NCBI GenBank assembly: GCA_035578175.1 | Contig: JAQMRL010000003.1 | Span: 108,662,469-108,726,468 of the forward strand | Length of the DNA: 64,000 bases | Direction of reading: 5' to 3' | DNA from: Catonia carolina | Lineage: Eukaryota > Arthropoda > Insecta > Hemiptera > Achilidae | Shown here: positions 1,701 through 64,000 of the stretch, piece by piece | Layout: each line of letters starts with the position of its first letter | Position numbering within the stretch: the stretch's first letter is position 1 | Notes under the pieces: model-generated | Seen by the model: only the letters and a program-made list of their open reading frames with translations | Told to the model about the DNA's origin: nothing | The model's database searches: none | Translations under genes and position numbers: made by a program

Positions 1701-1739
1701 TGGCCTAATAGTACTTTTTTAATTTCTTTTTTTAAAATA

Positions 1740-2450: not shown

Positions 2451-2535
2451 AGTTTAAATAATATAACGACAGTTGACTTAATTTTTTTTCATTTCATTAA
2501 AGGGAAAAATTGTCTTTACAAGTAGATTAGTTACC

Positions 2536-2575
2536 TATATAAGGCTGGATTGGCGGAATCGAAATACATTCAATC
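2536..2575 (+). promoter_or_regulatory. Copy 1 core promoter (TATA plus initiator)
   Basis: TATATAAG at 2536-2543 is followed about 30 bases later by an arthropod-type initiator ATTCAATC (A at about 2572). This predicts a 5' UTR of about 65 bases before the ATG at 2637. The same pair occurs at the same distance in all four copies. Confidence 0.65.
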
Positions 2576-2636
2576 CTTCTAGTACTGGAAAGCAGAACTG
2601 ATCTGTTCGAGGAAGAAATCACTTGTGACGATCAAA

Positions 2637-7111: not shown

Positions 7112-7123
7112 ATGTGATGGTCG

Positions 7124-7129
7124 AATAAA
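7124..7129 (+). terminator. Copy 1 polyadenylation signal
   Basis: AATAAA 13 bases after the stop codon, in the context CGAATAAAG, which is kept in copies 2 and 4 and nearly so in copy 3. The 3' UTR is probably very short. Confidence 0.6.
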
Positions 7130-8905
7130 GTTTTCTGAAGATACCTGAAAATGTTGAATTATTTTTTATAACTTCTATCCAAGCCAATAATCCGGAATAA
7201 CTAACGATCGCAAATATTTTATCTAACTTTAACCAGTGTGTTAATCGATGTGTTAATCCTGATGTCTTCAATTTTAGTAATTGAACTAGTTAACCTATCA
7301 AAATTTATGGTATCTGTTCGACAAAAGCAAACTTAACGTAAGAACTAAACGGCTAGTATGCACGAGAGAGTTTACTCACTTTAACGGAAAATCTTTTAAA
7401 ACACATCACACGACCTTTTTACTACGACGGTGTGATTCTCCACGAGCGTTTCTCTTCGATTAATTTGTACCGACAGCTCCATCTGTGAGGTATTTAGGGC
7501 TATACTTTGAATGCCGATTAACTTGGAACTCTCATGTCTCGGTTAAAAGACGCACGTTAAATAACAGATTTACGAATATTGGTCCATGCACCCTAATGCG
7601 TTTCTAACGCTACCTTACATAACAACCAAAACATCCTTCTTGCAACAGGCGTTCGGATTCAACCTTATAGAAAATTCTAGAACAGACTTCTAGCTAAATG
7701 AAGCAAATTGATAAGTAAACTTTGTTCTCTAAGTTACATATATAACAAAATAAAGGCAACAGCGTTGGGAAGGAAATCCTGACCCACTGGTACAAAACTT
7801 CTATTCTCAAAGGTTAAGTTCTGGAGATGCGGTAAAAAAAATAAACAAATTTTAATTTGTACTAGGCGCATTGGAAGAACAAACAACCGATAAACGAAAA
7901 TTGTATGCTTAAAATAGTATTTAATCTTTATAATACAAACTTAACACTAATGACAAGAAAAATTGGTATTCAAATATTACCTTGAAACTTTCTGACTATG
8001 TGACTCGAAACTTTACGACCGAAAAAAGTTGTACCACACCCAAAATAATAATAGCAAAAAAGTTACACGGTAACCTAAAACCCAACATCGGACGAAAAAT
8101 AGCTAGAAACAAAAATAATTATCTTCAAAGTTATTCATTAAATTCACTTCCAACATAACATCGTTACATTTATGGTTTTACCATTTTGCTTTTGACCTAC
8201 ACAGAAATATTTTTGAAGACTAAAAAACAAGTTCAATTGTTAAAATCAACAAGAAACTTGTAAAATTTTACTTCCGCAACATATGCGACCTTCTAGTGAA
8301 TTTTTAAGCGCGGATGTCGCCCTGCGTCTCTAAACTTTGGGGATGTCAGGTCACGGCCAAACGGCGGCTACGCTCTGGACACTCGCAAGTGGGTTCACAC
8401 CTTCTAAGGCTGTTTACAGCTAATAAATGCCGAGCAAATTCAGTAAAATTAAAATTACAGTAGTATTGTGTAATTTGTCCAGTTTCCATTGTCGTCTGTA
8501 TTCCTAAACCGTGTTGTAGTGGTCAGCTCAATGTGGAATACCAAGTTCGATTCCTGATTTGAACTGATATTAAAAGAGTAAATTGCTTAATTGTACTTAT
8601 TTCTCTCAAAATCTAAATAATTGGATGATTGATTGAAATATTCCTACCACCACTACAGTGACTATAACAAAGACTTTATAGTGTACATAAGACAAACAAC
8701 ACCGTAGTTTAGTACGTCAAACCATACTGATTTTAATGTGAATTCAAATAATACAAGTTGGTTAGTACAGGGTGTTTCATCTAAACCATTATCCATTACA
8801 AAGTCAATAAACCTGCTTCTCTTATCTAGCCACAAGTGAAAAAAGTATCGTTACCTGTACGTTACAATCAAACATTCATATTACTTCATAAAGCTTTAAC
8901 AGTTA
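7130..8905. other. 3' flank of copy 1, non-coding
   Basis: Shared with segment D (62074-63850) and in part with B and C. Around 8470-8660 is a tRNA-like stretch (GTAGTGGTCAGCTCAATG, then GTTCGATTCCTG) which also recurs near 21360 and 37400. No gene was recognised. Confidence 0.6.
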
Positions 8906-10908: not shown

Positions 10909-12520
10909 TTTTTTTTTTTTTTTGCGCCCTGGAGACTCCAGGAGGAGTATAGGACATGTCGTCAGATGTAACACCTGAAATACATATAAGAAACACACTA
11001 TGTATCACTACTATCAAGAAAGAAATTCTTGTACGCTATAAAAAGTTTCACCGTCAAGTAATTTTTTAAAGGAATTCAAATCCTCACAACACTTTAAAGA
11101 TTGGGGTAATTTATTTATGAATTTTCTCCCTGCATAAGTAGGTTTTTGTTCAAACAATTTTGTGGAGTGATTAGCCACATAATAATCATTCCTGTTTCTC
11201 GTGTTATGATTGTGAACATTGAAATTCTGCATAAAATTATTTTGCCTAACATACATAATCACCTCAAAAATGTAGAGACAGGGAACTGTAAGCAATTTAA
11301 GCTCCTTAAATAGTGGCCTGCATGAGGTTAGCTGGTTAGCTCCCACCATATACCTAATAGCTTTCTTTTGAATTTTAAAAACCCTATTCATATTACCCAT
11401 GCTAGAATTACCCCATACTAAAATACCATAACGGATATGAGACAGAATGAGGCCATGATAAGCTGCCATGAGTAATTTTTTATCATTTAATCTGGCGATT
11501 TGTTTTAGTGCAAATACCCCAGATGATATTTTACTACAAACTTGATTGATATAGAAGTCCCAAGACAAAGATCTATCTAGAGATACGCCCAGGAACTTCA
11601 CTGTTTCTACATGCTCTAAACTATTATTATGAATAAATACATCCACTTCTCTACTTTCTTTAACGTTATGTTTATTTTTGAACTGCAAGTACTGACACTT
11701 TTTCCCATTAACTGTTAATAACATTTCATTCAAGACCTGCACTACGGACTCTATGTTAACATGTGTATTTACTTCAAGAGCATCTACCAGTGAACTGTTA
11801 CTGATTACTGAAGTATCATCAGCAAACAACAAAGCTCTGCCATTAGGTATGACTTCTGGTAACCTATTAATGTACAATAGAAACAGAATTGGACCTAAAA
11901 CTGACCCTTGTGGAACGCCTGCTTTGACTTCAAGCTTTCCAGATACAACTTTTGTAAGTTTCCCTCTAACAACCCTAGTTAACTCCACACACTGTAATCT
12001 ATTAATAAGGTAAGATTGAAACCATTTCAACTCTACATCCCTAACGCCTAATGACTCTAGTGTTTTCAATAAAATTTCATGATCAACACAATCGAAAGCT
12101 TTACTCAGATCCAGAAACACTGCCAATGCTTTCTCCCCGGCGTCCAATATATCAACTACTTGCTCCACAAGTGAAACAATTGCAGTTTTAGTTGATCTAC
12201 CTTTTTGGAAACCATGCTGATCCTCTGAGATGATTAGGTTTTCAGTCAAGAAACTGATTAACCTAATAAATACTACCTTTTCAAAAATTTTACTGATTGT
12301 GTTTAAAATACTTATGGGTCTATAATTTTCAACTAACTGGCTATCTCCATTCTTAAATATAGGCAATATTTTTGCCTCCTTCAGTTTGTTTGGAAATACA
12401 CCTGCTTCAAGTGAGAAGTTAATCAAATGAAGGAGAGGAGTAATTAAAAGATGTTTACATTCTTTAACAATTATACTAGAAATCCCATCTAACCCACATG
12501 TTTTCTTTATCGTCGGTTTT
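10909..12520 (-). mobile_element. 5'-truncated non-LTR retrotransposon (Jockey/CR1-like)
   Basis: A 16-base T run at 10909-10924 is the poly(A) tail of a minus-strand element. The reverse transcriptase frame occupies 11014-12426. The 5' end is lost near 12520, where R1 begins. The whole reverse transcriptase core is open, so the insertion is fairly young. No clear target-site duplication was found. Confidence 0.82.
11014..12426 (-). CDS. Reverse transcriptase, C-terminal part of a Jockey/CR1-like LINE ORF2
   Basis: A 470-residue open frame copying LINE RNA into DNA by target-primed reverse transcription. In order it shows a fingers block (ENYRPISIL), DQHGFQKGRST, the first catalytic aspartate block (AVFLDLSKAFDCVDH), GVPQGSVLGPILFLLYIN, the FADD catalytic box (LLFADDTSVI), KFLGVSLD and a C-terminal region with HIRYGILVWGNSS. 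The N-terminal endonuclease is absent because the element is 5' truncated, so the first Met here is not a true start. No stop interrupts the domain, unlike the other LINE pieces in this window. It is selfish DNA and unrelated to the Kazal-like genes beside it. Confidence 0.88.
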   Translation of the reverse strand: MINFSLEAGVFPNKLKEAKILPIFKNGDSQLVENYRPISILNTISKIFEKVVFIRLISFLTENLIISEDQHGFQKGRSTKTAIVSLVEQVVDILDAGEKALAVFLDLSKAFDCVDHEILLKTLESLGVRDVELKWFQSYLINRLQCVELTRVVRGKLTKVVSGKLEVKAGVPQGSVLGPILFLLYINRLPEVIPNGRALLFADDTSVISNSSLVDALEVNTHVNIESVVQVLNEMLLTVNGKKCQYLQFKNKHNVKESREVDVFIHNNSLEHVETVKFLGVSLDRSLSWDFYINQVCSKISSGVFALKQIARLNDKKLLMAAYHGLILSHIRYGILVWGNSSMGNMNRVFKIQKKAIRYMVGANQLTSCRPLFKELKLLTVPCLYIFEVIMYVRQNNFMQNFNVHNHNTRNRNDYYVANHSTKLFEQKPTYAGRKFINKLPQSLKCCEDLNSFKKLLDGETFYSVQEFLS

Positions 12521-12540
12521 TTATCTTCTTACAAATGTCC

Positions 12541-13764: not shown

Positions 13765-16700
13765 TTAAAAACAACTACCGCAGCGACAAAAAAGTAAATC
13801 TGCAAAAGAAAAAAATCTTTATGAAGATGGCCATAAATGCATAAAATTATTTCCGAAAAAAGTATCGGAACACGAACTTATGTTCTAGGTAACAACTTAA
13901 CGGTACTGCGCTCGTCAGCACGCTGTTATTGGGCAACGTAGACCTAATTCATGATAAGAACATCCGTTTTTATCATAAATCAGAAGCTACGGCTGTGCAT
14001 CAGGAATTTAATTAGTTTTGATAGGAAGTAAAAATTGTTAAGATTTCTTTTAACTTCAAAACAGTATTTTTTTACACAAATTAATCGAGCAAAATAAACC
14101 ATTACAGCTGCAACAACTTGTGACTTTTACAGTACGTAAGATGACTATAATATATTCTTAACTGGCGCAAATTTACGCCGTTGATCGGTACTTTTGATAA
14201 CGACTAGTAATATAAATGAAATAAATTAGCTTCAATTTCGCAACATAGAAATGCATAAGGGCACAGTATATTGAAGACTTGAAACTGATGACTTACTGGA
14301 ACCTTTTGGAGAAGAATCAACAATAAGGTTGCAATTCGTTGTTTAAATATTGATCACAAATATACTGGTATCATAAGCTTACACAAATTACTTACGACCA
14401 TTACTAAAGAATTTAAAATCATAAGGCGGGACATTTTGCTACAAAAACTAACAAATGCACAATTATAAATAGAACTATAGTACACTAATTACTCGCCGTG
14501 CCACGATTTATTAAAATTATGCATTGTATTAAAGTAACTTCTTAATGACATTCTTTGAAATGCACTATCAATACAAAAAAGTATTGTTTTTTATTATTCC
14601 ATATGTTGCTCAATTTTTTTCTGTATCCTAAATTTTACTCAACAGCTAATTCAGTCCAGTACAGAGTCAAATCGACCGTTGAGATAGCCAAATAAACGTT
14701 CTTCATAATGAAACGAAGAAGTAAATGCACTACTGCGTTTCATCTCTAACAGGATTTTCTTAGTACGTCCGCACTTAACCGCTCTACGAAACACAAAATT
14801 GTCAGGTGCATCTTATTACTGGAATGACACGCTGGCACCGTCGATTGGCCTCACACCGGAAAGCAAGAATTGACTGCTATTTGGTTTAGTTTTACTATAC
14901 GTTTTTGCACAAAAATTAGATAAATATTTCGTTACTTATATTGAATATATTATAAATATGAAATTTACTTACTAGGATCTTTAAATGCTGCGTTACAGAA
15001 AGTAAATATATCAGGATAAGTTACATATCGCTGGATATTGAAATCAAATCCACAAACTGGCACACCAGAAATACATAAATACGGACATTCTTGTGGTGAT
15101 GGATGGCGACAGGCTTCTTGACCTTTCCCTAACGCTTCAGTGTTTGAGAAGCCTAGCGTCATAATCAACAATACTGCTAAACCTAACCCTGAAAAAACAA
15201 CAACGTACATTCACCATTATGTAAGTTAAAACAATGAAAGTTGTTCGTTAAGATACATTTAGATGCAACACAATTTTGTAAATAAATCCTGCACTTTCTG
15301 AAATAGACGTTTATCCAACACAGTACACGATCTTGGGGTAAACCTAGATAGCAAACTCATGACGAAGAATAATATAAGAAAATTAAGATAAAATTCAAAT
15401 GGAGTTCAAAAAATTATCGGCTCGTCGGTTAGACTCTGAACTTTTAATTTTTTCAAGTGCTAAAACTGATTTGGACGTATGCTCAAACCAATCCAACAGA
15501 AACCCTATTCAAAAAATTGAAAGCAAACTGCTGAAGAACATTGTAAATGCCCGATGTTAGACGCAGCTGAGTGATATCTACATTGAGTTTCAAGTAGCTT
15601 TAGTAGCTGAATAAGGGTGTAAGTGTGCCAATAAGCACGTCCCTTGGTCAAATTATAAAAAGTAATGAAGTGCAAGTTTTGGACACTTAAAATCCAACAG
15701 TTTTTTAGGTGACTGAAAAGTACAAAGCCATTTTATTTAGTGTGTTAAGAGAAAGATAAGCATTAAAAAACGCTGTAAGTATACGCAACGGTCAAAATTT
15801 AAGCCATGCAAAAATATTATAAAACAAAATCTTGTATTAATAAGTAAATTCCACGAGTCTGGAAGTATTTATTTATAAACTTTGTTTTGCTTAAAAACAA
15901 CCGGTATAAGATGAATTTTAGTAATATTTTATAATTCTATTCTTACTAGTAAGTAAACAGCATTGGTTTTAATAAATAAATTTTGCGAGACTGGAAGTTT
16001 ACAAAGTCGTAACGTCACATGTATTCGGTAAGTGATGTTGGAAGTACTTGAGGATGTAAAATTTCCACTGGGTATAAATTCATTTGTTTATCGTTACATT
16101 ACATTTATACGAACTAGACAACTAGTGAGTGGCAGGGCTACAGTGCAAATTTCGTTACTTTCGATGACACCCCAGACTTGTTACGGACTCGTTATTTGCC
16201 GAATGTTTCATACCCGAAGGGTTGTATCTTCAACGACCCCTAATATTACTCTGGGAGACTTTGTCTTGCAGGAGTATTTTAGTATTGTTGAATACAATCA
16301 AATTACACGTTTTTAATTAAAGTCAAAAATTGACGTTCGATTTCTAATATTGAAGTGTATATTTATACGGAAAAGGGGCTTAAATTGTTACAAAACTTAT
16401 ATACAAAATATATTCAAAACTTATTATACGAACTGCTATCCGGTCAAAGAGAATTATTAAAACATGTATTATAACTTTAATGGTTATTTTATTAGTAATT
16501 TGAATATTATTTTTTAAACTCTAATAAAAATTTAGATTTACGTTTATGTAAATTAAAAACCTATTGCACCTATATGATGTTGTGTACAACTTCTTCTTCT
16601 TCTTCTTTGGCCTCGCCTCTTCCCGTTACGTGGGGTCGGCTTTCCCAATTAGAGAGCTCCATTTGTTACGCTCCTGTGCGTCTTCCTCGGATAAGCCCAA

Positions 16701-18018
16701 CATTTTCATGTCTCTTTGGACATTCGTCATCCACGTGGTAAGGGGTCTACCCCTTCCTCTCCTCCCTGTAGCCATTGAAAGGCACCTCTTCACGACATGA
16801 TCATCCGTTCTCCTAAGCACATGACCATACCATCTCATCCTGGACTCTCGCACCTTTTCTGCTATATTAGCAACTTTGAAGGTTCCCCTTATATGCTCAT
16901 TCCGCACCTTATCCTTCAATGTGACTCCTCCCGCCCATCGCAGCATGCGCATCTCTGTAGTGTGGAGTTTCTGTTCATGCACTCTCTTAAGTGCCCAAGC
17001 TTCGCTGCCATAGACAAGTGCTGGTCTAACTGCCGCTCTGTAGACTCTTCCCTTTATTTTTATGGGCACTTTTGGGTCACACAGAACCCCAGTCAGCATA
17101 CGCCACCTGTTCCAGCCCGATGTTATTTTATGCACTATTTCAGCCTTTATGGATCCATCCTCTGAGATCACTGCCCCCAGATACTTGAAAGTTTTAACTC
17201 TGGGCAGGGGGGTTGCCTCAAGTTTGATGTCTCCACTCCATGAGTCATCAGGATCAAAACCACAAAACATGTACTCTGTTTTCGTTCTACTGATGCGCAA
17301 CCCATTTTGTTCCAGTGCTTTTCTCCAATTTTCCAAGTTCTCTTGAATCCCCTGCAGGCTATTTTATATAAGGGCTACATCATCAGCATACAAAATGTTC
17401 CATGGAGTCTCCTTTTGAATTTCCGATGTCAAGTAGTTCATGACAGTATTAAACAACAAGGGACTTAAGGCACTGCCTTGATGTACACCAACCCTAATAT
17501 TGAAATACTTGGATGATCCAGCTGGGGTTCTAATGCCTGTTTCAACATTGTCATACATGTCCATAATAAGTCTGACATAACATTCAGGGAGTCCATGTGC
17601 TCTCAGAGCCTGCCATATAATTGTTCTCGGAACTCGATCAAATGCCTTTTCAAGGTCAATAAATACCATCCACAGATTTGTCTTGTTATCCCGAGCCTTC
17701 TCCATGACCAGTCTGATTGCATGGATAGCATCAGTGGTCCCTTTCCCCTTTGTAAAGCCAAATTGGTTTTCCGTCAGAACAGCATGGTTTGTGAGGTGCT
17801 CACTTAGGATTCTTTCCCAGATCTTCAGGGTATGTGAGGTGAGTTTGATCCCCCTATAATTACCACAATCACGAACATCACCTTTGTTTTTATAGAAGGG
17901 CACAAGGATACTTTTCCTCCAACGTTCTGTACAACGTTCATGTAAATTAAATAAGAAGTTCACCTATTTTAAATACCCTGTATCGACAAAAGATTTTTAA
18001 ACAAATTTTCCTATATTA

Positions 18019-18069
<51 letters not shown>

Positions 18070-18265
18070 TATTTTAAACTAAATAAAATCGATACCAAAC
18101 ATTTCGACTGCATTAAGCTCCTCTTGGCATCTTAAAAGATGTGAAAAATGCGTATTTCCGGTTTTTTTTAAAATATGTTAAAATTAAATGATTGAAAACT
18201 ATGACTAAACATTAGATGAAGTAATTACCTTTACAAATACTAAGCCGGTTCATCAAATTGGCCAT
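13765..18265 (-). CDS. Secreted Kazal-like cysteine-rich protein, copy 2
   Basis: Minus-strand gene of three exons: 18229-18265, 14973-15188 and 13765-13799, with GT-AG phase-1 introns. The spliced frame is open for 95 residues. Residues 1-31 form a signal peptide (MANLMNRLSICK then GLGLAVLLIMTLGFSN). The mature domain has eight cysteines at about 39, 47, 51, 58, 77, 89, 91 and 94. It contains PVCGFD and RYVTYPD followed by FCNAAFKDP, which look like the C3 to C4 region of Kazal inhibitors. The cysteine count and the 18-residue C3-C4 gap are not classical. It stops one residue after the last cysteine, so it lacks the tail of copies 1 and 4. Intron 1 carries an RTE-like LINE (16591-17927) and an ATT microsatellite. 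A protease inhibitor or secreted effector role is inference from the fold; the splice structure is seen directly. Confidence 0.75.
16591..17927 (-). mobile_element. RTE-like LINE, 5' truncated, in copy 2 intron 1
   Basis: TGTACAAC occurs at 16583-16590 and again at 17928-17935, a clean 8-bp target duplication. The 3' end on the minus strand is a (GAA)n tail, seen on the + strand as (TTC)n at 16591-16602. Copy 3's intron shows the related uninterrupted sequence near 28370. The reverse transcriptase relic fills the element. Confidence 0.85.
16626..17927 (-). pseudogene. Reverse transcriptase of an RTE-like LINE (one nonsense codon)
   Basis: One reading frame runs the length of the element, interrupted by a single TAA immediately after the catalytic box YADDVALI (stop near 17364). 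The upstream part has RWRKSILVPFYKNKGD, NYRGIKLTSH, FTKGKGTTDAIHA, a DLEKAFDRVPR block and GVHQGSALSPLLFN. The downstream part has KTEYMFCGF, TFKYLGAVIS, LVYGSEAWAL and RMRWYGHVLRR. These blocks follow the RTE/BovB-type ORF2 order. Endonuclease and N-terminus are missing by 5' truncation. It is dead as a coding unit but otherwise well preserved, which suggests a recent insertion. Confidence 0.85.
18001..18078. repeat. (ATT)n microsatellite
   Basis: A run of TTA/ATT triplets in intron 1 of copy 2, near the point where segments A and D carry their piggyBac insertion. Confidence 0.85.
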
Positions 18266-18439: not shown

Positions 18440-18928
18440 ATTATTTAAACTTATTTAAAATAAACATATTTTGTATCTGATTCGGGTGTTAACCATAAAT
18501 ATTTGGATTACTTTCTATTAATGTGTAACAATAAACGAATTAATTTGATTGGTCATAAATTAATAAAGAAATAAAAAATATTTCATTGATCGTGAATAAT
18601 CAATTTGCAATCATTACTTTAGAAATTTGTTTTAATACCTATTGTTCGTTATTCAAATAAAGTACCCCATTACAATTTTATTTTTGGATTATTAAGGATG
18701 AAAAGTTTTTTTTTGTATTTTGTATCTGATTCGGGCTTTAACCATAAATTTCAGTATTACTTTCTGTTAATGTTTAACAATTAACGAATAAATTTGATTT
18801 GTCATAAATTAATGAAGAGATACAAAATACTTAATTGATCGTTACTAATCAATTTACAATTAATTGTTACTTGAAAAATGTGTTTTAATATCTATTGATT
18901 GTTCTTCAAATAAAGTAGCTCATTAAGA
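18440..18928. repeat. Tandem array upstream of copy 2 (two monomers)
   Basis: Inverted relative to segment A. Two monomers are visible, each with an ATTGATCGT block and the TAATACCTATTG or TAATATCTATTG end. The segment B homology stops here at the junction with the L3 LINE. Confidence 0.68.
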
Positions 18929-25282: not shown

Positions 25283-28200
25283 TTAACAAGCATAGCAGCG
25301 GCAAAAAAGTATATCTGCAAAAGAAGAGATCTGCATGAAGATGATTTCAAAAGCATAAAATTATATCACAAAACATGATTAGGTACACCAACTCATGTTC
25401 TTGCTAATATCGAATCTTTACTGCTGCTCTTCTGTACGCTGTTATTGTTTAACAAATTTTGTGACAAGAACATGATCTGTTTTGTCATAAATCATATGTT
25501 AGGCTGACGGTCAAGAATTTAAATATAGGTAATTATAACAAAATAGAAGTATAATAAAATATACGAGTATATTATAATTTATGAAATTTGTTTTTAGTAA
25601 AAATTATAATTTTTCCTTTGGAACTTCAGATAAGTATTTATTAAGAAACTAATCAAGTTCGATGAACAATTATTACGAAAACCGACACTCGCAAATTACG
25701 ATTATACTACGTGAGCTCATTTGATTACAAAATATAATCCCGTAATTTACTGCTAATTCCCGCTAAAGATCGACGTTTTGAAATAGATAAGCGAATTACA
25801 TTTAACAAATTAGTTTCAATTTGCCACAATAGAAGTACATATAGGCACAGTACATTGCAGACGTACAACTGATGACTTATTGGAAACTTTTGGAGCAGAC
25901 CCAACAAAAGGTGACGCAATTCGTTGTTAAAATAACGATCACAATATTAATATACTGGCATCATAAGCCTACATCATGTACTTACGACCAATACAGACGA
26001 ATTTAAAAACATTAGGCGGGACATTTTGTTAAAAAATAACAAATGTAATAATAGAAATTGAACACTATTACACTAATAACATGCCGTAGTTCGATTCACT
26101 AAAATTATATACATTGATGTGAGGTATTTGGTTTTTTCCCGTACAATTTGTAACACAAAACTTGTTTAATTTGAGTTGTAAAAATTTGTAACACAAAATT
26201 GACGCCTAGTACATGGTCAAATCGACCGTTAACTCAGTTTGATAAATTTTCTTCATAGTAACGAAGAAATAAATGCACTACTGCTTTTCATCTCTAGCAG
26301 TATACCTGTAATATGTCCGCATTTATCCGTTCTACGAAACACAAAATTTTCATGTGAGACATATATGATCGGTCTGACACGCTCTAACGACGATTGGCCT
26401 CACACGGGAGAGAGAGAAACATTATAAATTGATACTTTGTATAATACGTACTAAATTTCTTTTAAAAAAATGTAACAAACATATTTCGTTACTTATATTT
26501 AATAAATTATTAATGTGAAGTTTACTTACTAATATCTTTATCTGATTCGTCACAGAAATACTGTATATTTGGATAAGTTACATATCGGCCGATATGGCGA
26601 TTAAATCCACAAACTTGAATACCACGAGTACATAAACCTCTACATATCGCTGGATCTGGATGATAACAATATTGCTGATTTAACCCTGATGACTTTTCTT
26701 CACAGTTTGAGAAACTCAGTATCATAATCAACAAAACTGCCACAAGTAACCCTGAAGAAAAAACAAAAAAATACGTTCACTATTACGTTAGTTGAAACAT
26801 TTGAATTGTGTTTGTTAAGATACATTTAGATGCAACACAATTTGTAAATCAATCCGTCATTTTCTGAAGTATAAGTTTTCTCAACACAGCATACTATCTT
26901 GCCGTAAACTTAGATAGCAAACTCATGAGGAAAAGGAAGAAGATGATATTCAAAAAGAGTTCAAAAAAGTAATTATCTTTTCGGTTAGACTCCAAACTGT
27001 TGATCTTTACAAAAAGTGAAACTGATATGGACGTATGATTAAACCAATAAAATAGAAACCTCATTCATAAATTTGAAAGCTAACGGCCCAAAAACATTGT
27101 ACATGTCTGATATTAGACCCGGCTGAGTGACATTCAACTTGAGTTGCAAATATAGTATTCAGATGAACTAATGTCCCCTAGACGTGGGAGTGAGAGAATG
27201 CATAACGCTCACTAGCACAAGCCATACGCGCCAATAACATTCCAATAACATTGCCGTATAATTTTACTCATTGTTGTGAGCAAGCGTTTATGCACGTAGT
27301 TAACTAACAAAAAAGATAACGACTGTAGTATGTTTTCAGATTTGGATTATAACGGTAAAGACCTTTGAGCGCATGCATAGTTATGCCACATATCTCCCTC
27401 TTACTCGCTCGGCTATGAGACATTAGTTTGTCTGATACCTATTACTACAGTAGCTGAAGAAGTGTGTAAGTGTGCCGATCAGCGTGATGCCTTTGTGGAA
27501 TTATCAAAAGTAATGTTTTTCAACTTTTGGACACTTAAAATCCAACAGAAAAAGGACAAAGCCTTTTTATTTACTGTATTGAAAGAAAGAAAAATATTCA
27601 AAATGCTGTAGATAAAAAAAACGGGCAAAATTTAACCCGTGTAAATAAATTACAAAAAATAAACTTATATTAATTAATAAATTCCACGAGACTGGAAGTA
27701 TTTATTTTTTAACTTTGTTTTGCTTAAAACAACCGGTATTAGATGATTTTTAGTTAATATTTTTTAATTCTACTCTTACAAATAAGTAGACAGCATTGGT
27801 TTTTATATATAAATTCTGCGAGGCTGGAAGTTTATAAAGTCGTAACATCACATGTCTTCGGTAAGTAATGGTGGAAGTACTTGACGGTGGAACATTCCTA
27901 CTGAGAATAAATTCATTTGATTATTGCGACGTTACATTTATACGAACAAGAATGTTTGTGCAAGGCCTACAATGCAAATTTCCTTAGTTCCGATGACACG
28001 CTAGACTTTTTGCGGATTCATTATTTACCTATTGTTTCATATCCTAAGGGTTGTATCCTAAACGATCCCCTAATCATACACGTGCAGACTATTTCTGCAA
28101 GAGTATTTACAGCATTTTTAAATATAATCCTTTTACACGTTTATAATGAAAGGCAAAAACTATAAGTTAGATTTCTAATATTGATGAAGAATGATTAGGA

Positions 28201-28971
28201 AAAGTGGCTTAAAATGTTACAAAATTTATACGAAATGCCATTCAGTCACAGATGTTTAAAACATCTGTTTTGATGTTATAAATGTTTATTTAATTTTATA
28301 GTATGAATATTATTTATTCAAATTATAACAAAAATTTAAATAGGTATTTAATTCATATGATATTTTGTACGACATTTATGGTAATTACAGTTGTATTGAA
28401 CCTTTTTCAAATACCCTGTATCGGCAGTCGATATTAAAAAAATTTCCCATTTATGATGTCGCTAAAATCAGCTGTGTAACAGCTGATTTTCGGAGACGAT
28501 GGTTCCTGGTTCAAATCCTAGTAAAGTTAGTTACTTTTATACGGATTTGAATGCTAGACAGTGGTTACCGGTGTACTTTGATGGTTGGGGTTCAATTAAC
28601 CATACTCTCTCAGGAATGATCGGTCTGAGTCTGTACAAGACTACATCTCATTCACACGGCATACAGATCATCCTCATATCATAGGGTTTCTTATTGTTCT
28701 GAATTTAACAGATTGCAACGTACACACATTAAGTTAAGTAGATTTAAGATGTGTGGAACTAAGCTATAAAACTACATTAACTACAGCGCACCTATGCCAA
28801 CATGCCGACTGCGTTAACCTCCTCTTGACATCTTCAAATGCTGTAAAAGAACTAAGAAATGCATGAATCTGTTTTTAAAAATGTTTAATTTAGATGACTA
28901 AAAACTACGACTAAACTTTAGATAAAGTAATTACCTTTACAAATAATTGAACAGTTCATCAAATTGGCCAT
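25283..28971 (-). CDS. Secreted Kazal-like cysteine-rich protein, copy 3 (most divergent)
   Basis: Minus-strand gene of three exons: 28935-28971, 26530-26751 and 25283-25314, all with GT-AG phase-1 junctions in the same positions as the other copies. The spliced frame encodes 96 residues. The signal peptide is MANLMNCSIICK then GLLVAVLLIMILSFSN. The mature part has a ninth cysteine near the signal cleavage region (position 29) and the shared set at about 41, 49, 53, 60, 79, 91, 93 and 96. Conserved blocks are QVCGFN, GRYVTYPN and LFCRCYAC. Translation ends exactly at the last cysteine. CTR after the third shared cysteine puts an Arg where the P1 reactive residue would fall if the Kazal comparison holds (inference). 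Introns and flanks are clearly less similar to the other copies, so this is the oldest duplicate here. Nothing breaks the frame. Confidence 0.74.
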
Positions 28972-29179: not shown

Positions 29180-29410
29180 TATTTTGTATCCGATTCGGGT
29201 TTTAACCATAAATTTTCGGAATTACTTTCTGTTAATGTGTAACAATAAACGAATAAATTTGATTAGTGATAAATTAATGAAGAAATACAAATTACTTAAT
29301 TCATCGTGACTAATCAATTTTGCAATTATTACTTGAGCAATGTTTTTAATACACATTGTTTGTTATTCAAATGAAGTAGCACAATTAAATTTTATTTTTT
29401 GATGATAATG
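29180..29410. repeat. Single monomer upstream of copy 3
   Basis: One recognisable monomer of the promoter-proximal array, more diverged than in the other copies. Beyond it 29410-29540 matches segment A near 1640-1710. Confidence 0.55.
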
Positions 29411-29540
29411 AATGAAAAAGTGTTTTTGGGCCATTTCACAGGTCCGATACAATTTCCTGACGCCATGAGATTTTATCCAGCAGTTTTAGGAAACGCCAAT
29501 TGTTTTTCTAAACAGTTTAACGCACGAGACGATATACGAT

Positions 29541-29904
29541 ATTATATTATATAACATTATGAAACTTTTAAAAGTAAGCTACTTCTTCCTTAATGATTGC
29601 ATCTTAATTTTTAATTACATTGTTCATTATTTCTAGCATTTTAACAAATATTTAATAAACCTTGTTATTAAATGATGAAAAAGATTCCTAATTTGTGGAA
29701 TTAATAAATCTTCAGTGACAATTAGGTTTAATTGTTTCCTTTATTTAATCTTTTCCCATATCCTGCAATTATTTTGCTCATGCATAATTAAGGCTTCATT
29801 GCTTTCTCAGAGTTACGATTTCTATGTATTGTTAAAAAAATCTGTTGTGAAATACTCATGCTCCTTGTCCTGCCAAATAATGAAAAATGCACTCTATGTT
29901 CATT
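29541..29904. other. AT-rich gap between segment C and an R4 fragment
   Basis: I see no gene, RNA or repeat beyond low-complexity AT sequence. The open frame at 29715 has no supporting context. Confidence 0.35.
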
Positions 29905-54963: not shown

Positions 54964-56699
54964 TTCAGCTTCTTACTGATTTCCGTTGAGATATTTTGTT
55001 CACACACATATACACACAGGTCAATCCACTAAAGACATGTTCAGGGGTCATCGTTCCACTTTTGAAGTCGAGTTTTTTCAAAATGTGTTTGATGTTGAAT
55101 AAGATTTTGAACCGTGTGGATCTTGGTAAGGTTAATGCGTTTTGGCAGCTTTGTTTGCTTCCTCATTTTTATTAATACCCACTTGAGATGAGCTCCATAT
55201 AAATACCACTTAATTACTAATTTAAAAATTCTTGTGTACATTAAAAAATGTTTAACAAAATTAGGAACCTAAATGTAGATATTATTTTTAGGGTCAGTGC
55301 GAATGAGAAAATATTTATATAGTCTAAGGATAAGTGTACGTACTTGAATTACTGTTTGATTACTTAAGCCTCGTTGTAGATTATAAAAGACCAGAGTTGT
55401 ATTTAAAAGTTTTTCTTCCTCCGGGAGGACAACTACCCAGCCAAAGCTTTATCGTTTTTTGAACCGTCAGTAAAACTCATTATCTTTAAAGTGCTCAGTG
55501 TGTCTTAACGAAAGACCAAATTTTGAAAGAAAATTGAAACAAACACTATAAACTCAAATTGAGTAACACAAACTTATAAAATTGCAAGGATGTTGGTCAG
55601 TAATCCATGCTGCAATAACACCAACACTGTTCTAATTTAGAAATGTACAAAAAAAGATTTGACACGACGCTGAAAATCTTGCACCCAGAACCCCTAACCG
55701 ACTTCATCACCTACTTCAGTGTCTTGTGGTGTCCTTCGGTATTGTTAAGAATTATTTCATAAACTTTAAGTAGGGTAACTTAGGGTACTACGGCCTTGGT
55801 TAACGTAATTTGTTAATAACAAATACGCAAGATTAAAAAATTCATTATATTTACAAGAGAACTCTTTACACCTTTCTTTCCGCCTGCGTTAGCAGTAAAT
55901 GCAAAACAGTCAACGGTAAACAAAAAAAAAACACCTTTCTTTAGCAGTTACTAAAGTTTCATATCGTTAAATTTATGTTTTTATTTACAAATAGAATAAA
56001 TTTGTGGTATTTTCCGTGCGATCACACTCCCCATGCAACGGGGTAATATAAGCACACTGTTGGGGAATATGAGCTCGTTTAAAAACATTTTGTTTTAACA
56101 CTTAATGAACACTTTAAACAAGGTTGATAATGCATAATTTATTATTTAATGCATAATTAATTACAATAGCACTTATACCAAATAATTGTACTCTCAAATC
56201 TATGTTTGACTTACTTGAATTTTGAATAAAACTTTAAAAAATGTTAGGAAATAACGGAAAAATTATGAAAATTAGTTTTGTAAATTAATTGTCAATATTA
56301 ATGGTTATTAACTTCATGAAAAATAATGTTAAAATTTTTGAAGAAAGTAAAATATTTCTAATAATTTTATTAAGGGTTACAATAGTCGTTATTTCCACAA
56401 AAAAAGAAAATTTTATCATCGTTTATTAACATCCCTGATTAAATATTTGGTACAATGCTAGAAAAAATGAACAACGTAATTGAAAATTAAGGTGCAATCA
56501 TAATGGAATAAAAAGCTTATTTTTTACAGTGTCCGCAAGTTATATTATTTAATAACATATATATAGTTCCGTGCATTCAATCCGTTTAGAAAAAACAATT
56601 GCGTTTCTTAATACTTCAGGGTAAAATCTGATGGCGTCATGAAATTAGGTCGGTCCTGTGAATTGGCCTAATAGTACTTTTTTAATTTCTTTTTTTAAA

Positions 56700-57395
56700 A
56701 TACCTAATGAGCTACTAACAACAAAACAATAGGTATTAAAACAAATTTCTATAGTAATATTTGCAAATTGATTAGTCACGATTAATGAAATAGTTTTTAT
56801 TTCTTCAATAATTTATGACCAATCAAATTAATTCGTTTATTATTACACATTAACAGAACGTAATCCAAAAATTTATGATTAAAACCCAAAATAGATACGA
56901 AATACTTAAAAAACTTTTAAAATGAAATTGTAATGGGCTACTTAATTTGAATAACAAACAATAGGTATTAAAACACAATTTTCAAGTAACAATGCAAACT
57001 CATTAGTCACGATCAATTAAGTATTTTGTATTTCTTCATTAATTTATGACAAATCAAATTTATTCGTTTATTGTTACACATTAACAGAAAGTAATACTGA
57101 AATTTATGGTTAAAGCCCGAATCAGATACAAAATACATAAAACACTTTTAACCCACTATCATCAAAAAATAAAATTGTAATTAACTACTGTATTTGAACT
57201 ACAAACAATAGGTATTAAAACATATTTCTAAAGTAAAGATTGCAAATTGATTAGTCACGATCAATGAAATATTTTTTATTTTTTTCAATAATTTATGACC
57301 AATTAAATTAATTCGTTTGTTGTTACACATTAATAGAAAGTAATCCAAATATTTATGGTTAACACCCGAATCAGATACAAAATACATTTATTTTA
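56700..57395. repeat. Tandem array upstream of copy 4
   Basis: Three monomers homologous to those at 1740-2450, slightly shortened by an internal deletion near 56925. The array ends just upstream of the copy 4 promoter. Confidence 0.72.
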
Positions 57396-57483
57396 AATAA
57401 GTTTAAATAATATAACGACAGTTGACTTAATTTTTTTCATTTCATTAAAGGGAAAAATTGTCTTTACGAGTAGATTAGTTACC

Positions 57484-57523
57484 TATATAAGGCTGGATTG
57501 GCAGAATCGAAATACATTCAATC
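57484..57523 (+). promoter_or_regulatory. Copy 4 core promoter (TATA plus initiator)
   Basis: TATATAAG at 57484-57491 and initiator ATTCAATC with A at about 57520, matching copy 1 base for base over the TATA box. It lies about 100 bases upstream of the ATG. Confidence 0.65.
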
Positions 57524-57584
57524 CTTCTAGTAGTAGAAAGCAGAACTGATCTGTTCGAGGAAGAAATCACTTGCGACGATCAAA

Positions 57585-60500
57585 ATGGCCAATTTAATGA
57601 ACTGGTTTAGTATTTGTAAAGGTAATTACATCATCTAATGTTTAGTCTTAGGTTTCAGTCATTTAATTTTAACATATTTTGAAAAAAAAACCAGATATAT
57701 GCATTTTTCACTTCTTTTAAGATGCCAAGAGGAGCTTAATGCAGTCGAAATGTTTGGTATCGATTTCATTTAGTTTAATTATTTAATTGCACATTTAACT
57801 CTTAACTGGTGAGGTGGTATTATTGGAACACTCACAGTGAGGTGGGGTCTCACAGACCCCCTCAAATTTTTTTAATTTTTTACACAAATTAAAAAATTTT
57901 TTATTTTTATGCAATGGCTTAAGTAAATTTTTAAACTGCTATAGAAATGTGGAATAGAGCTAGAAATAAAATACACTTCGCTAAACCATTACAAAAAAAT
58001 ATTTTTTATTTTACACTCGGAAAAATGAACTCAAAAACATTGTTTATTAAAATTCTATCTAAAATAGACAAAAAAAAATTTGATAATTTTAAAATGTTTA
58101 CACCTTTTAATTATGAGTTTAAAAACAATTCGAATAAATCAGAATAATTCTAAAATAAAACTAAAAAATTCTGCACGGTTTTAAAATTTGTAAAAATATG
58201 CTGATATTACACTGAATAAACACTAAACGTCTCTCAGTTTTCTCCACAAATAGAGCAAAGATCAGGTCTACAATCCAGGCAGTATGGTTTTAACATCTTC
58301 TGCATTGAAATTTTGCTTTCCTATCTCTTTCTCTAGGACACAATTGGAATCTTTTTCTTTTTTCTCCCACACGAACATTTTGCTGTGGCACTGTTTCTCC
58401 TAAAAGGTTTGCAACCATAGACCGTAACTGTCTCGGAAGAACTTCATTATGGATACGCCTTCTTTAGTGTAGTTCCATTAAAGACCTTGCCAGGTTTTTC
58501 AAAAAATTGAAGCGTGTCGGTTTCTGGATATTGGGCACTGAGTAATGAATCACGTATGCGTTTACACCAGCAATGTTCAATATTGCAAAAAATATTACTG
58601 TAGGCTATCTTTTTGTTCGCCTACTTGTGTTGTAACCAGCGCATTTCTGGTCCAATACTTCCACTCCTCCTTTTGTGGAATTGTAAAATGCTATTATAGC
58701 TGGTTTTCCGGTCTCTTCATCTTGTGATACATTGAGGACAAACTTATGACAGCTTTACTTTGTTTTGGAACATAAAAGTGAAGAGTGAGGTCACTAGTGA
58801 ACCCATAAACTGAGCTTAGTACGTTTCTAGACTTTTTAAGCAAAAACTCAGGTGGAATTTCACCTTTATTTTTCCGAAGAGTTCCTACGTAAGTTAAATT
58901 TCGCTTTTTTAAATTCTCTAGCCAACTAAATTGAAGAAAACCAATTATCAGCAGTCACATTTCTATTGCTATTGTATATAGGTTTTGACAAACGCAGAAC
59001 ACTTTGGGTGGGTTTTAGGAAAGTTTGCTCTTCTTTGCTAAGACCCTCACCATCACAATTTTTTCCAGTATAATCACATTCAATTTTTTATAACATTATC
59101 AGGAAAATCTGGGTCGTTAACCCTAAACTGTTTATCTCCAGACGCCATTTTTGTAAATCACTATGAGAACGAAACTAATACACCCACGGTGAGGTGGGGT
59201 CTGACAGACCCTAAAGCAACTTTAACTTGTTGTACCGACTATAAAATCAAAAGCTAGAACGCAAACAGATCGTAGGGGAGCTCAACACCAACTTACTTGA
59301 AGGTACTGAACGCGTCAAGGTCATCTGACTCTCAGTGTTGCCAATGTTAAAAAATGAAAATTCCCTGGGGTTTGGCAGACCCCACGTCAACAGTTAAGGG
59401 GTAAGCCCCTTTTCCTTATAAATACACTCTTCAATATTAGAAATCGAACGTTCAATTTTTGCCTTTAATTAAAAACGTGTAAATGGATTGTAATCAAAAA
59501 TACTTAAAATACTCCCGGAAGGGAAAATCTGCCCGTGTAATATTACGGGATCATTGTGGAGACAACCCTTTGGATATGAAACAATCGGCAAAGAACGAGT
59601 CCGTAAAGGGTCTGGCGTGTCATCGAAAGTAACGAAATTTGCACTGTAGCCCTGCCACTAACAGTCTCGTTCGTATAACTTTAACGTAGCAATACACAAA
59701 TTAATGAATTTATTCCCAGTGGAAATGTTACATCCTCAAGTACTTCCACCATCACTTACATGTGACGTTACGATTTTGTAAACTTCCAGTCTCGCGGAAT
59801 TTATTTAATAAAACCAATGCTGTTTACTTATTTGTAAGAATAGTATTATAATATATTAACTAAAAATCATCATATACTGGTTGTTTTAAGCAAAACAAAG
59901 TTTATAAATATATACATCCAGTCTCGTAAAATTTACTTATTAATACAACATTAAGTTTTACAATATTTTTGCATGGCTTAAATTTTGACCGTTGCCTATA
60001 CTTAAGGCGTTTTTTAATGTTAATCTTTCTCTGAAGACACTAAAAAAACAGGCGTTGTACTTTTCAGTCACCTAACTAACTGTTGGATTTTATGTTTCCA
60101 AAAGTTGAACTTCATTACTTTTTATAATTTCACCAAGGGACATGCTTATTGGCACACTTGCACCCTTCTTCAGCTACTAAAGATTCTTGCAACTCAAGGT
60201 GGATTTCATTCAGCTGCGTCTAACATCTGGCATTTACAATGTTATTGAGCAGTTTGCTTTCAATTTTTTGAATAGGGTTTCTGTTGGATTGGTTTGGGCA
60301 TACGTCCATATGAGTTTTAACACTTGAAAAGATCAACAGTTCAGAGTTTAACCGAAAAGCCAATAATTTTTTGAACTCTATTAGAATTTTATATCTTCCT
60401 TATTGTATTCTTCGTCGTGAGTTTGCTATCTAGGTTTAACCCAAGATCGTTTACTGTTTTGGGTAAACGATTATTTAAGAAAATGACAAATTTATTTGCC

Positions 60501-62055
60501 AATGTATTGCATCTAAATAAATCTTAACGAACACATTTCAATTGTTTGAACCAACACAGTAGTGAATGTACTTTATTGTTTTTTTCAGGGTTAGGTTTAG
60601 CAGTATTGTTGATTATGACGCTAGGCTTCTCAAACTCTGAAGCGTTAGGGGTAGGTCAACAACGCTGTCACCGTCCAACATGTATGGCGTTATGTCCTCG
60701 TGGTCCAGTTTGTGCATATAATCCCGATTCCAAGCAATATGTAACTTATCGTGGTATAGTTCCTTTCTGTGTCGCGTTTGATCAAAATCCTAGTAAGTAA
60801 ATTTCCTATTGTTTTATAATATATTCAAAATAAGTAAATAAATAATTTGCTAATTTTTGTGCAAAATACTTTCAGTTAAACTAAACCAAATAGCAGTTAA
60901 TTCTGGCCTTCCAATAAGAGGCCAATCGTTGTTGCAAGCGTGTCATTCCAGTCTTATGATGCACCTGAAATATTTTGTGTTTGTTAGAGCGGTTAAGTGC
61001 GGCATTCTAAGAGAACACTGCTAGAGATGAAACGAAGTAGTGCACTTATTTCTTCATTTAATTATGTAGAACGTTTATGAAGCTACCTCAACGGTCGATT
61101 TAACTCTGTACTGGACGGCAATTTGCTGTTGCAAAAAATGAGGATACAGAAAAAATTAAGCGACGTATGGAATAATAAAAACGATATCTCATTGTATTGA
61201 TAGTGAATTTCAAAAAATGTCATTAAGAAGTTACTTTATTACAATGCATAATTTTAGTAAATCGTCGCACGGCGAGTAATTAGTGTACTATAGTTCTATT
61301 TATATTTGTGTATTTGTTACTTTTTGTAGTAAAATGTAACGCCTTATGATTTAAAATTCTTTAGTAATAGTCGTAAGTAAATTATATAAGATTATGATAC
61401 CAGTATATTTGTGATCATTATTTGAACAAAAAATTGCAACCTTATTGTTGGTTCTTCTCCAAAAGGTTCCAGTAAGTCATCAGATTTAAGTCTTCAATAT
61501 ATCGTGCCCTAATGCCTTTCTATGTTGCGAAATTGAAGCTAATTTATTTCATTTCTTTTACTAGTCGTTATCAATAGTACCGAGCATTAGCGTAAACTTT
61601 TACCAGTTAGGAATATTTTATAGTCATCTTACGTACTGTAATTGTAAGTCACAAGTTGTTGCAATCGTAATTCTTTATTCCGCTCGACTAATTTGTGTAA
61701 AAAATACTTTTTCGAAATTGAAGGAAAGCTTAACAATTTTTTTTCTATCAAAACTAATAAAATTGTAGACGCACAGCCGTAGATTCTGATTTATGATAAA
61801 AACGGATAATCTTATCATGAAATAGGTCTACGTTACCCAATAACAGCGTGCTGACGAGCGCTGTACCGTTACGATGTTACCTAGAACATTAGTTCGTGTT
61901 CCGATTCTTTTTTCAGAAATAATTTTATGCTTTTATGGCCATCTTCATAAAGATTTTTTTCTTTTGCAGGATTACTTCTTTGCTACTGCGAGAAATGTGA
62001 TGAAACACAACTTGAGAATACAACTCTGACTTTATTAGATGTCATGAAACATTAG
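57585..62055 (+). CDS. Secreted Kazal-like cysteine-rich protein, copy 4
   Basis: Three exons: 57585-57621, 60589-60792 and 61970-62055, with GT-AG phase-1 introns. The frame encodes 108 residues. Residues 1-31 are a signal peptide spanning the exon 1-2 junction. Eight mature cysteines lie at about 39, 44, 48, 54, 73, 85, 87 and 90. Blocks GPVCAY, KQYVTYR and PFCVAF match the Kazal-like plan of copy 2. After the last cysteine there is an 18-residue tail with an NTT sequon, identical in its final 16 residues to copy 1. It is the intact sister of copy 1: promoter, introns and 3' flank are nearly identical, while the mature domain is strongly changed. CPR places an Arg at the possible P1 site (inference). 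The first intron contains the same piggyBac relic as copy 1. Likely a secreted inhibitor or effector; the target is unknown. Confidence 0.78.
57799..59400. mobile_element. piggyBac-family relic in copy 4 intron 1 (same insertion)
   Basis: Homologous over its full length to 2851-4451, in the same intron position and with the same right end (CAGTTAAGGG then GTAA). The left end has mutated to CTCTTAACTG. It carries the same broken transposase remains on the minus strand, so it was duplicated along with the gene. Confidence 0.82.
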
Positions 62056-62067
62056 ATGTGATGGTCG

Positions 62068-62073
62068 AATAAA
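62068..62073 (+). terminator. Copy 4 polyadenylation signal
   Basis: AATAAA 13 bases past the stop codon in the same CGAATAAAG context as copy 1. Confidence 0.6.
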
Positions 62074-64000
62074 GTTTTCTGAAGATACCTGAAAATGTTG
62101 AATTATTTTTTATAACCTCTATCCAAGCCAATAATCCGGAATAACTAACGATCGCAAATATTTTATCTAACTTTTACCAGTGTGTTAATCGATGTGTTAT
62201 ATCCTGATGTCTTCAATTTTAGTAATTGAACTAGTTAACCTATCAAAATTTATGGTATCAGTTCGACAAAAGCAAACTTAACGTAAGAACTAAACGGCTA
62301 GTATGCACGAGAGAGTTTACTCACTTTAACGGAAAATCTTTTAAAACACATCACACGACCTTTTTACTACGACGGGGTGATTCTCCACGAGCGTTTTCAT
62401 CGATTAATTTGTACCGACAGCTACATCTGTGAGGTATTTAGGGCTATACGTTGAATGCCGATTAACTTGGAACTCTCATGACTCGGTTAAAAGACGCACG
62501 TTGAATAACAGATTTACGAATATTGGTCCATGCACCCTAATGCGTTTCTAACGCTACGTTACATAACAACCAAAACATCCTTCTTGCAACAGGCGTTCGG
62601 ATTCAACCTTATAGAAAATTCTAGAACAGACTTCTAGCTAAATTAAGCAAATTGATAAGTAAACTTTGTTCCGTAAGTTACATATAAAGTAAAATAAAGG
62701 CATCAGCGTAGAAAAGGAAATCCTTACCCACTAGTACAGAACTTCTATACTCAAAGGTTAAGTTCTGGAGATGCGATAAAAAAAATAAACAAATTTTAAT
62801 TTGTACTAGGCGCATTGGAAGAACAAACAACCGATAAACGAAAATTGTATGCTTAAAATAGTATTTAATCTTTATAATACAAACTTAACACTAATGACAA
62901 GAAAAATTGGTATTCAAATATTATCTTGAAACTTTCTGACTATGTGACTCGAAACTTTACAACTGAAAAAAAGTTGTACCACACCCAAAATATTAATAGA
63001 AAAAAAAGGACACGGTAGACTAAAACCTAACATCAAACGATAAATAGCTAGAAACAAAAATAATTATCTTCAAAGTTATTCATTAAATTCACTTCCAACA
63101 TAACATCGTTACATTTATGGTTTTACCATTTTGCTTTTGCCCTACACAGAAATATTTTTGAAGACTAAAAACCAGCTTCAATTGTTAAAATCAACAAGAA
63201 ACTTGTAAAATTTTACTTTCGCAATATCTGCGACCTTCAAGTGAATTTTCAAGCGCGGATGTCGCCCTGCGTCTCTAAACTTTGGGGATGTCAGGTCACG
63301 GCCAACCGGCGGCTACGCTCTGGACACTCGCAAGTGGGTTCACACCTTCTAAGGCTGTTTACAGCTAATAAATGCCGAGCAAATTCAGTAAAAGTAAAAT
63401 TACAGTAGTATTGTGTAATTTGTCCAGTTTCCATTGTCGTCTGTATTCCTAAACCGTGTTGTAGTGGTCAGCTCAATGCGGAATACCAGGTTCGATTCCT
63501 GATTTGAACTGATATTAAAAGAGTAAATTGCTTAAATGTACTTATTTCTCTCAAAATCTAAATAATTGGATGATTGACTAATATTCCTACCACCACTACA
63601 GTGACTATAACAAAGTCTTTGTAGTTTACATAAGAAAAAAACAACACCGTAGTTTAGTACGTCAAACCATACTGATTTTAGTGTGAATTCAAATAATACA
63701 AGTTGGTTAGTACAGGGTGTTTCGTCTAAACCATTATCCATTACAAAGTCAATAAACCTGCTTCTCTTATCTAGAAACAGGTGAAAGAAATTATCGTTAC
63801 GTGTACGTTACAATCAAACATTCATATTACTTCATAAAGCTGTAACAGTCTACTAATTCAATTGAAAAAAATTATTTTCTTTTGTATACCGTTATTAAGA
63901 ATTAAGGTATATGTGTTCATATTAGACAACAAAAATAGACAAATTCGGCCTGAGGTTTTAAAAGACTTCCAAACCACTTCAAAGCTAGTGAACTTTAAGG
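62074..64000. other. 3' flank of copy 4, non-coding
   Basis: Matches 7130-8907 and then 9833-9990 of segment A with few differences. It shows the uninterrupted site of the A-only insertion at about 63850. A tRNA-like stretch (CCAGGTTCGATTCCTG) lies at 63486-63501. No gene was seen. Confidence 0.7.

Follow-up and report, generated by a model that had tools for sequence, protein, structure and literature searches.

Which process makes the mature-peptide code of a duplicated gene diverge far beyond the introns that flank it? This question is raised by a 64-kb window (the whole stretch of DNA analyzed here; C69:108662469-108726468) of a genome of 1.47 Gb in 142 contigs. Four copies of one gene were found in this window, copies 1 and 4 on the plus strand and copies 2 and 3 on the minus strand (Table 1). 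A sequence-only reading of the window had claimed that exon 2 evolves faster than its introns and had taken this as the hallmark of diversifying selection. In the lineage of copies 1 and 4, amino-acid change in the mature exon runs at about ten times the intron rate, very probably as the result of diversifying selection for new loop residues. The family as a whole is read as the product of two processes, namely diversifying selection on the mature code and homogenization of the rest in part of the family.

The gene comprises exon 1, a long intron 1, exon 2, an intron 2 of about 1.2 kb, exon 3, and an AATAAA signal, a model based on sites that are directly observed to be conserved among the copies. 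Exon 1 spans 37 bases in the four window copies, encodes MANLMN...ICK, and ends in phase 1 at a GTAATT donor, with the element CCTATATAAGGCTG located 103-109 bases upstream of the ATG in all four. Exon 2 encodes the remainder of a hydrophobic predicted signal peptide, called by eye, followed by the start of the mature part with five cysteines, and exon 3 encodes three further cysteines and the stop. Exons 1 and 2 lie about 3 kb apart in copies 1, 2, and 4 and 2.2 kb apart in copy 3, and the predicted read-through lengths of copies 2, 3, and 4 are 95, 96, and 108 residues, respectively. No convincing candidate for exon 1 was found within about 1.8 kb upstream of exon 2 and the farther exon 1 was adopted; a conserved TATA-like stretch near 59410 was set aside because the adopted exon sits farther upstream. 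Copies 1 and 4 and their sisters carry an 18-residue C-terminal extension past the last cysteine (7055-7111 and 61999-62055), while the frame of the other groups ends at or directly past that cysteine, leaving the corresponding DNA as 3'UTR. Tandem repeats of about 190-250 bp were observed upstream of the promoters of copies 1, 2, and 4 (1754-2441, 18467-18925, and 56717-57387), with related sequence at the matching place of copy 3 (29180-29704). Minus-strand retroelement open frames (RVT_1) were also detected, above the Pfam cut-off at 11014-12528 and 17364-17963 and weakly at 16626-17363. Scans of the 64-kb window for tRNAs and against Rfam were empty.

Table 1. Coordinates of the duplication and of the four gene copies, counted from the first letter of the window.
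Feature	Position	Strand	Remark
Duplication arm with copy 1	1-8903	+	95.9% identity to 54964-63849
Duplication arm with copy 4	54964-63849	+	pairs with 1-8903; duplication of 8.9 kb
Copy 1 exon 1	2637-2673	+	four-copy alignment, duplication profile
Copy 1 exon 2	5641-5847	+	in-frame TAA at 5643-5645, probable pseudogene
Copy 1 exon 3	7026-7111	+	
Copy 2 exon 1	18229-18265	-	
Copy 2 exon 2	14973-15188	-	
Copy 2 exon 3	13765-13799	-	short form, CRCGSCF then stop
Copy 3 exon 1	28935-28971	-	
Copy 3 exon 2	26530-26751	-	
Copy 3 exon 3	25283-25314	-	short form
Copy 4 TATA-like promoter element CCTATATAAGGCTG	57482-57495	+	one exact match per copy (4 in the window; 0 expected)
Copy 4 exon 1	57585-57621	+	ATG, MANLMNWFSICK, phase 1, donor GTAATT; four-copy window alignment
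Copy 4 exon 2, signal-peptide part	60589-60653	+	TTTCAG acceptor directly 5' of 60589; conserved among copies
Copy 4 exon 2, mature part (hypervariable)	60654-60792	+	33% different from copy 1; rest of duplication about 3%
Copy 4 exon 3, last three cysteines and stop	61970-62055	+	TGCAG acceptor; open to TAG
Copy 4 AATAAA polyadenylation-like signal	62068-62073	+	found in all four window copies

Copies 1 and 4 were compared codon by codon and along the full duplication. The recount of mature exon 2 agreed with the sequence-only reading, with 29 of 46 aligned codons changed, one altered only silently, 16 identical, and one more gapped. The intron counts given there (about 2 differences in the 60 bases upstream and about 6 in the 112 bases downstream of exon 2) came out as 2 and 5. 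Exon 1 likewise differs by a single silent base (TTG/TTA), and in exon 3 four codons are changed, all of them replacements and one at the junction, with an identical end in the codon recount. In the full profile (1-8903 versus 54964-63849), differences amounted to 47/1698 (2.8%) in the 5' intergenic DNA, 22/669 in the repeat region, 7/205 in the promoter, 1/37 in exon 1 (a segment whose limits are 6 bases off the exon coordinates, so that the TTG/TTA difference was read from the four-copy alignment), 95/2958 (3.2%) in intron 1, 5/65 in the signal part of exon 2, 46/139 (33.1%) in mature exon 2, 40/1177 (3.4%) in intron 2, 7/31 (23%) in the variable start of exon 3, 1/56 in its end, 2/128 in the 3'UTR plus the next 100 bases, and 65/1660 (3.9%) in the 3' flank. 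The segments outside the mature code differ by 1.6-7.7%, and the 431 stretches of 60 bp that start outside exon 2 reach a maximum of 18%, compared to up to 40% for those that start inside it. This profile demonstrates that the contrast is not local noise. In exons 2 and 3 the peak stays within the mature code, the intron between them remaining at the level of the duplication, and apart from the slightly raised signal part of exon 2 (4 of 20 codons changed) the mature code alone departs from the divergence of the duplication. Since the flat 3% extends into the intergenic DNA at either end, the low intron divergence of this pair requires no special protection of introns.

The gene belongs to a family of at least 48 copies, all of those found being on contig C69 within 1.25 Mb (107.92-109.17 Mb). 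A 500-base query around exon 2 of copy 4 gave 42 matches, two of them fragments, and hence at least 40 loci, all on this contig (the best 40 of 57 candidates). A promoter query gave at least 40 near-full matches (the best 40 of 87 candidates), eight of which lie away from the loci of the exon-2 query; exon 2 was present in every one of these eight additional stretches, that of L056 being paired with a second exon 1. The copy number of 48 is a lower bound. Close copies of the block that holds the set from copy 1 to copy 4 recur in the cluster, and close sisters were identified for copy 1 (two, L015 and L016), copy 2 (two, L028 and L030), and copy 4 (four, L010-L013). An identity profile of 38 copies displayed a valley of 0.66-0.78 at the mature exon, with introns mostly at 0.77-0.90. 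Among the 43 aligned copies, a six-codon insertion (TPNSLK) before the mature domain was seen in L046 and a five-codon insertion (YVSNM) in L015 and L016, each absent from the other copies.

Rates of the mature exon were computed clade by clade with intron branch lengths. In the clade of copies 1 and 4 (eight copies), the nonsynonymous rate was 10.4 times and the synonymous rate 1.00 times that of introns; the likelihood ratio test (LRT) of equal nonsynonymous and intron rates gave 172.9, and omega was 8.9 (LRT against omega of 1, 10.6). Here the dN/dS well above 1 that the earlier reading had anticipated was borne out, with no ratio near 1, and this is the clade with the purest signature. Of the other clades, three had raised silent sites as well and three displayed no acceleration. 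The synonymous and nonsynonymous rates relative to introns were 7.1 and 9.6 in the L017-23 clade (LRT of equal synonymous and intron rates, 8.5), 5.9 and 5.2 in the L025-27 clade (13.3), and 4.6 and 6.0 in the copy-3-like clade (10.5), with omega of 0.8-1.6, not different from 1, in all three. Given these raised silent rates, selection on point changes does not explain everything in these three clades. The mature exon was not accelerated in the L021-24+43 clade (2.2 and 0.45), the L036-42 clade (0.30 and 0.42), and the copy 2 clade (0 and 0). For the whole tree, the two ratios were 0.80 and 0.59 in the signal part and 1.63 and 2.37 in the mature part.

We also picked 14 non-overlapping sister pairs from the intron tree, which cover 28 of the 43 aligned copies. 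Their introns differ at 347 of 23924 sites (1.45%) and their mature nonsynonymous sites at 91.7 of 1623 (5.65%), where 25.1 changes were expected at each pair's intron rate (P = 3e-24). Mature synonymous divergence was 2.8% (12.3 changes versus 6.8 expected, P = 0.045), with 11.8 of the 12.3 silent changes derived from four pairs in the three silent-raised clades, and the signal part had 1.46% nonsynonymous and 1.8% synonymous divergence. No acceleration was observed in five of the 14 pairs (L021/L024, L033/L034, L038/L041, L045/L056, and L028/L029). Site models were fitted to 50 codons of 43 copies with our own codon-model script; L039 (frameshift) and L049-L052 (divergent) were left out of the codon work, the stop codons of L014 and L017 were entered as gaps, and non-homologous intron segments were masked in L031, L034 (5'), L038, and L040 (3'). 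Averaged over all codons, omega under M0 was 1.42 on the intron topology (LRT against 1, 5.5) and 1.40 on the exon's own topology (4.8). Twice the log-likelihood difference was 108.1 and 88.3 on these two topologies for M1a/M2a and 86.7 and 76.9 for M8a/M8, tests that can be inflated by recombination. The positively selected class, a direct observation with omega near 4 (3.7-4.0), holds 26-27% of codons, and the conserved class includes all five cysteine columns of mature exon 2.

The same contrast would also be produced if the copies were older than their flanks suggest, with conversion or unequal exchange having re-homogenized promoters, introns, and flanks while the mature exon, spared by selection or heterology, kept its old divergence. 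The copy-3-like group (seven copies) presents features of this kind: from a divergence of 0.8% at -1.6 kb, the profile climbs to 3.3% immediately upstream of exon 2 and 15% in the mature part, then falls from 3.8% just downstream to 1.2% beyond +1.6 kb, in uneven steps, notably downstream. This is the pattern expected from flank conversion around a selected exon. In the same flank profile, L025/L027 are 17.8% different at the far 5' end, probably at the junction of a duplicated block. Moreover, silent sites at 4.6-7.1 times the intron rate in three clades, the copy-3-like exon at the lower end among them, suggest that conversion or homogenized flanks probably contribute. In older pairs, intron divergence (0.11-0.18) is about half that of the 3' flank (0.24-0.30, a region hard to align), which makes introns an imperfect neutral reference there. 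Pairwise dS exceeds intron divergence even between copies 1 and 4 (0.116, on 3.2 silent changes, versus 0.036), next to a dN of 0.56, and homogenization or concerted evolution was likewise proposed in the published description of salivary gland genes of the Hessian fly (PMC2955719). On the other hand, divergence between copies 1 and 4 is flat across the 8.9 kb, intergenic DNA included, the synonymous rate of their clade equals that of introns, and conversion tracts would have to skip both mature segments yet cover the intron between them. We therefore regard concerted evolution as a rather unlikely replacement for diversifying selection. Overwriting of one copy's mature exon 2 by conversion from an older paralogue is improbable. 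The mature exon does reject the full intron topology (p-AU 0.0006), which shows recombination or saturation to be present, and in its mature exon copy 4 differs less from L017/L018 (23.9%) than from copy 1 (33.3%). Among the 39 copies compared, however, the nearest mature exon outside the own clade still differs by 27.7% for copy 1 and 23.9% for copy 4. Neither outcome that the sequence-only reading had named against its own claim appeared in the clade of copies 1 and 4: besides the absence of a ratio near 1, none of the six multi-codon changed runs of copies 1 and 4 has a donor in 35 other copies, and the sister status of the two copies is not rejected by the mature exon (dlnL 0.03, p-AU 0.45). 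Replacement would also require one tract for exon 2 and a separate one for exon 3. Since the census is a lower bound, a donor may exist outside it. Across eight recent pairs, five of 18 multi-codon changed runs were matched elsewhere on either side, two of the five being merely an absent insertion.

Two further explanations dispense with selection for change altogether. Local hypermutation aimed at the mature exon would account for the raised silent sites of the three clades and for the fact that more than one base differs in 15 of the 29 changed codons between copies 1 and 4, but codons with an unchanged amino acid show silent differences at an intron-like rate in the 14 pairs (7/399.7 sites, 1.75%, versus 347/23924; P = 0.53), cysteine codons are conserved, and the variable part of exon 3 follows the same pattern across an unaffected intron, which makes such a process very improbable. 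Relaxed constraint, by which the mature exon would belong to decaying pseudogenes, is less credible still. Exon 2 or its acceptor is indeed disabled in four of the 48 copies, copy 1 included, but an open exon 2 runs from an AG acceptor to a GT donor in the other 44. Under relaxation the rate should not exceed roughly that of introns, let alone reach ten times it, so that this explanation is already contradicted by rates above the intron rate. The lesions are a nonsense codon in L014 (copy 1), another in L017, an acceptor lesion in L035, and a frameshift in L039. In copy 1 the TAA is the first whole codon of exon 2, and as assembled the product would therefore end after 13 codons. This TAA is unique to copy 1 among 40 exon-2 copies aligned, and L015 and L016, its near-identical sisters, are intact at that site and have the same diverged exon. 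Copy 1 is a probable recent pseudogene or an assembly error. Exon 3 was checked in part of the copies, and it was not found within the stretch aligned for L041 and L042.

The gene is predicted to encode a secreted and probably disulfide-rich peptide. Eight cysteine columns, nearly invariant by direct observation, are shared by all 15 aligned mature sequences, 14 of which have exactly eight cysteines and one of which has ten. The spacing C-x7-C-x3-C-x6-C-x18-C-x11-C-x-C-x2-C occurs in 12 of the 15, while the first gap is x4 in two (the copy 4 and copy 1 groups) and the third gap is x5 in copy 4. Six copies (L045, L048, L055, L056, L051, and L052) lack the otherwise nearly invariant fourth cysteine (VLGF, VFGF, VLAY). 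No Pfam family was found for four mature and ten full-length copies plus two peptides of exons 2 and 3, no relative in PDB sequence searches, and no match in a protein collection at E up to 1 (2 candidates; 595 candidates), so these peptides may be a lineage-specific secreted set. A weak structure model of exon 2 from the four window copies (pLDDT 67) has a hairpin and then a helix, and at this low confidence gave no useful structural match. The peptide has what we take to be a Kazal-like look (P-V-C, then a Y-x-T-Y stretch and F-C). Kazal-type inhibitors have a six-cysteine spacing, whereas all 15 mature sequences share eight columns, and no Kazal profile matched at E up to 10 (four mature and ten full-length copies) or at E up to 1 (the two peptides of exons 2 and 3); Kazal membership was not adopted. 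Given diversifying selection, the peptide is probably aimed at a changing partner, and venom, saliva, seminal fluid, and defense are candidate roles.

Under diversifying selection, duplication would supply redundant copies, the signal peptide would likely direct their products to one secretory tissue, and the cysteines would likely keep one scaffold. A changing external partner (prey, host, plant, microbe, or mate) would then likely select altered loops, and worn-out copies, such as the four with a lesion in exon 2 or its acceptor, would decay. In the three silent-raised clades, the exon would probably also be held apart while conversion homogenizes the flanks. More tentatively, the locus might work as a cassette system, in which conversion re-copies promoters, introns, and flanks across dozens of genes and selection keeps the mature exons apart. 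The divergence peak of the copy-3-like group is centered on the exon and decays over about 1.5 kb, and if the cassette reading were true the family would be a gauge of both conversion tract length and selection strength at one locus. In the pair of copies 1 and 4 the case is unusually clean, since an 8.9-kb duplication diverged by about 3% provides its own clock, which essentially only the mature code of two exons breaks, by a factor of ten. A family of at least 48 copies with graded ages could allow selection and conversion to be told apart, a question left open in what the Hessian fly study reports (PMC2955719).

The kind of pattern described here is already known from a few venom and saliva gene families. 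No database relative of the present family was found, and the literature was looked through by subject, not by sequence. The bicycle proteins of aphids presumably differ from the peptides of this family. Bicycle genes are described as encoding fast-evolving, likely secreted effectors without detectable relatives elsewhere and as sharing a gene structure that is steadier than the code, a likeness drawn without sequence comparison (PMC9168663). Among the conotoxin superfamilies named in PMC3862624, eight of nine have three exons and two introns; introns are conserved, and most point mutations and indels fall in the mature-peptide exon. These are genes of cone snails, likened to the present family by gene structure and not by sequence. 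The three-finger toxins of viperids, too, are reported as multigene venom families with accelerated coding change (PMC2474615, PMC2711939), but they swap short exon segments for unrelated sequence, and a search for exchanged segments in copies 1 and 4 found none. The closest precedent, by analogy, is given by SSSGP-1 and other small secreted salivary gland protein (SSSGP) genes of the Hessian fly, which according to PMC2955719 are clustered with one inverted member, combine a conserved promoter, UTRs, signal-peptide code, and intron with a hypervariable mature coding region, have dN/dS above 1 (18.8 in one pair), and form typically species-specific families. As far as that source describes them, there are seven SSSGP genes in 15 kb with established salivary expression, whereas the present family, known from genes alone, has at least 48 copies over 1.25 Mb with large blocks repeated, two introns, and a cysteine scaffold that stays alignable. 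In common with these genes, the present paralogues are clustered on one contig, promoter, signal code, introns, and UTR are conserved around a diverged mature code, and dN/dS exceeds 1 overall, though not in each clade alone. The likeness, one of pattern and not of sequence, thus lies in reversed conservation, positive selection, and suspected homogenization (PMC2955719).
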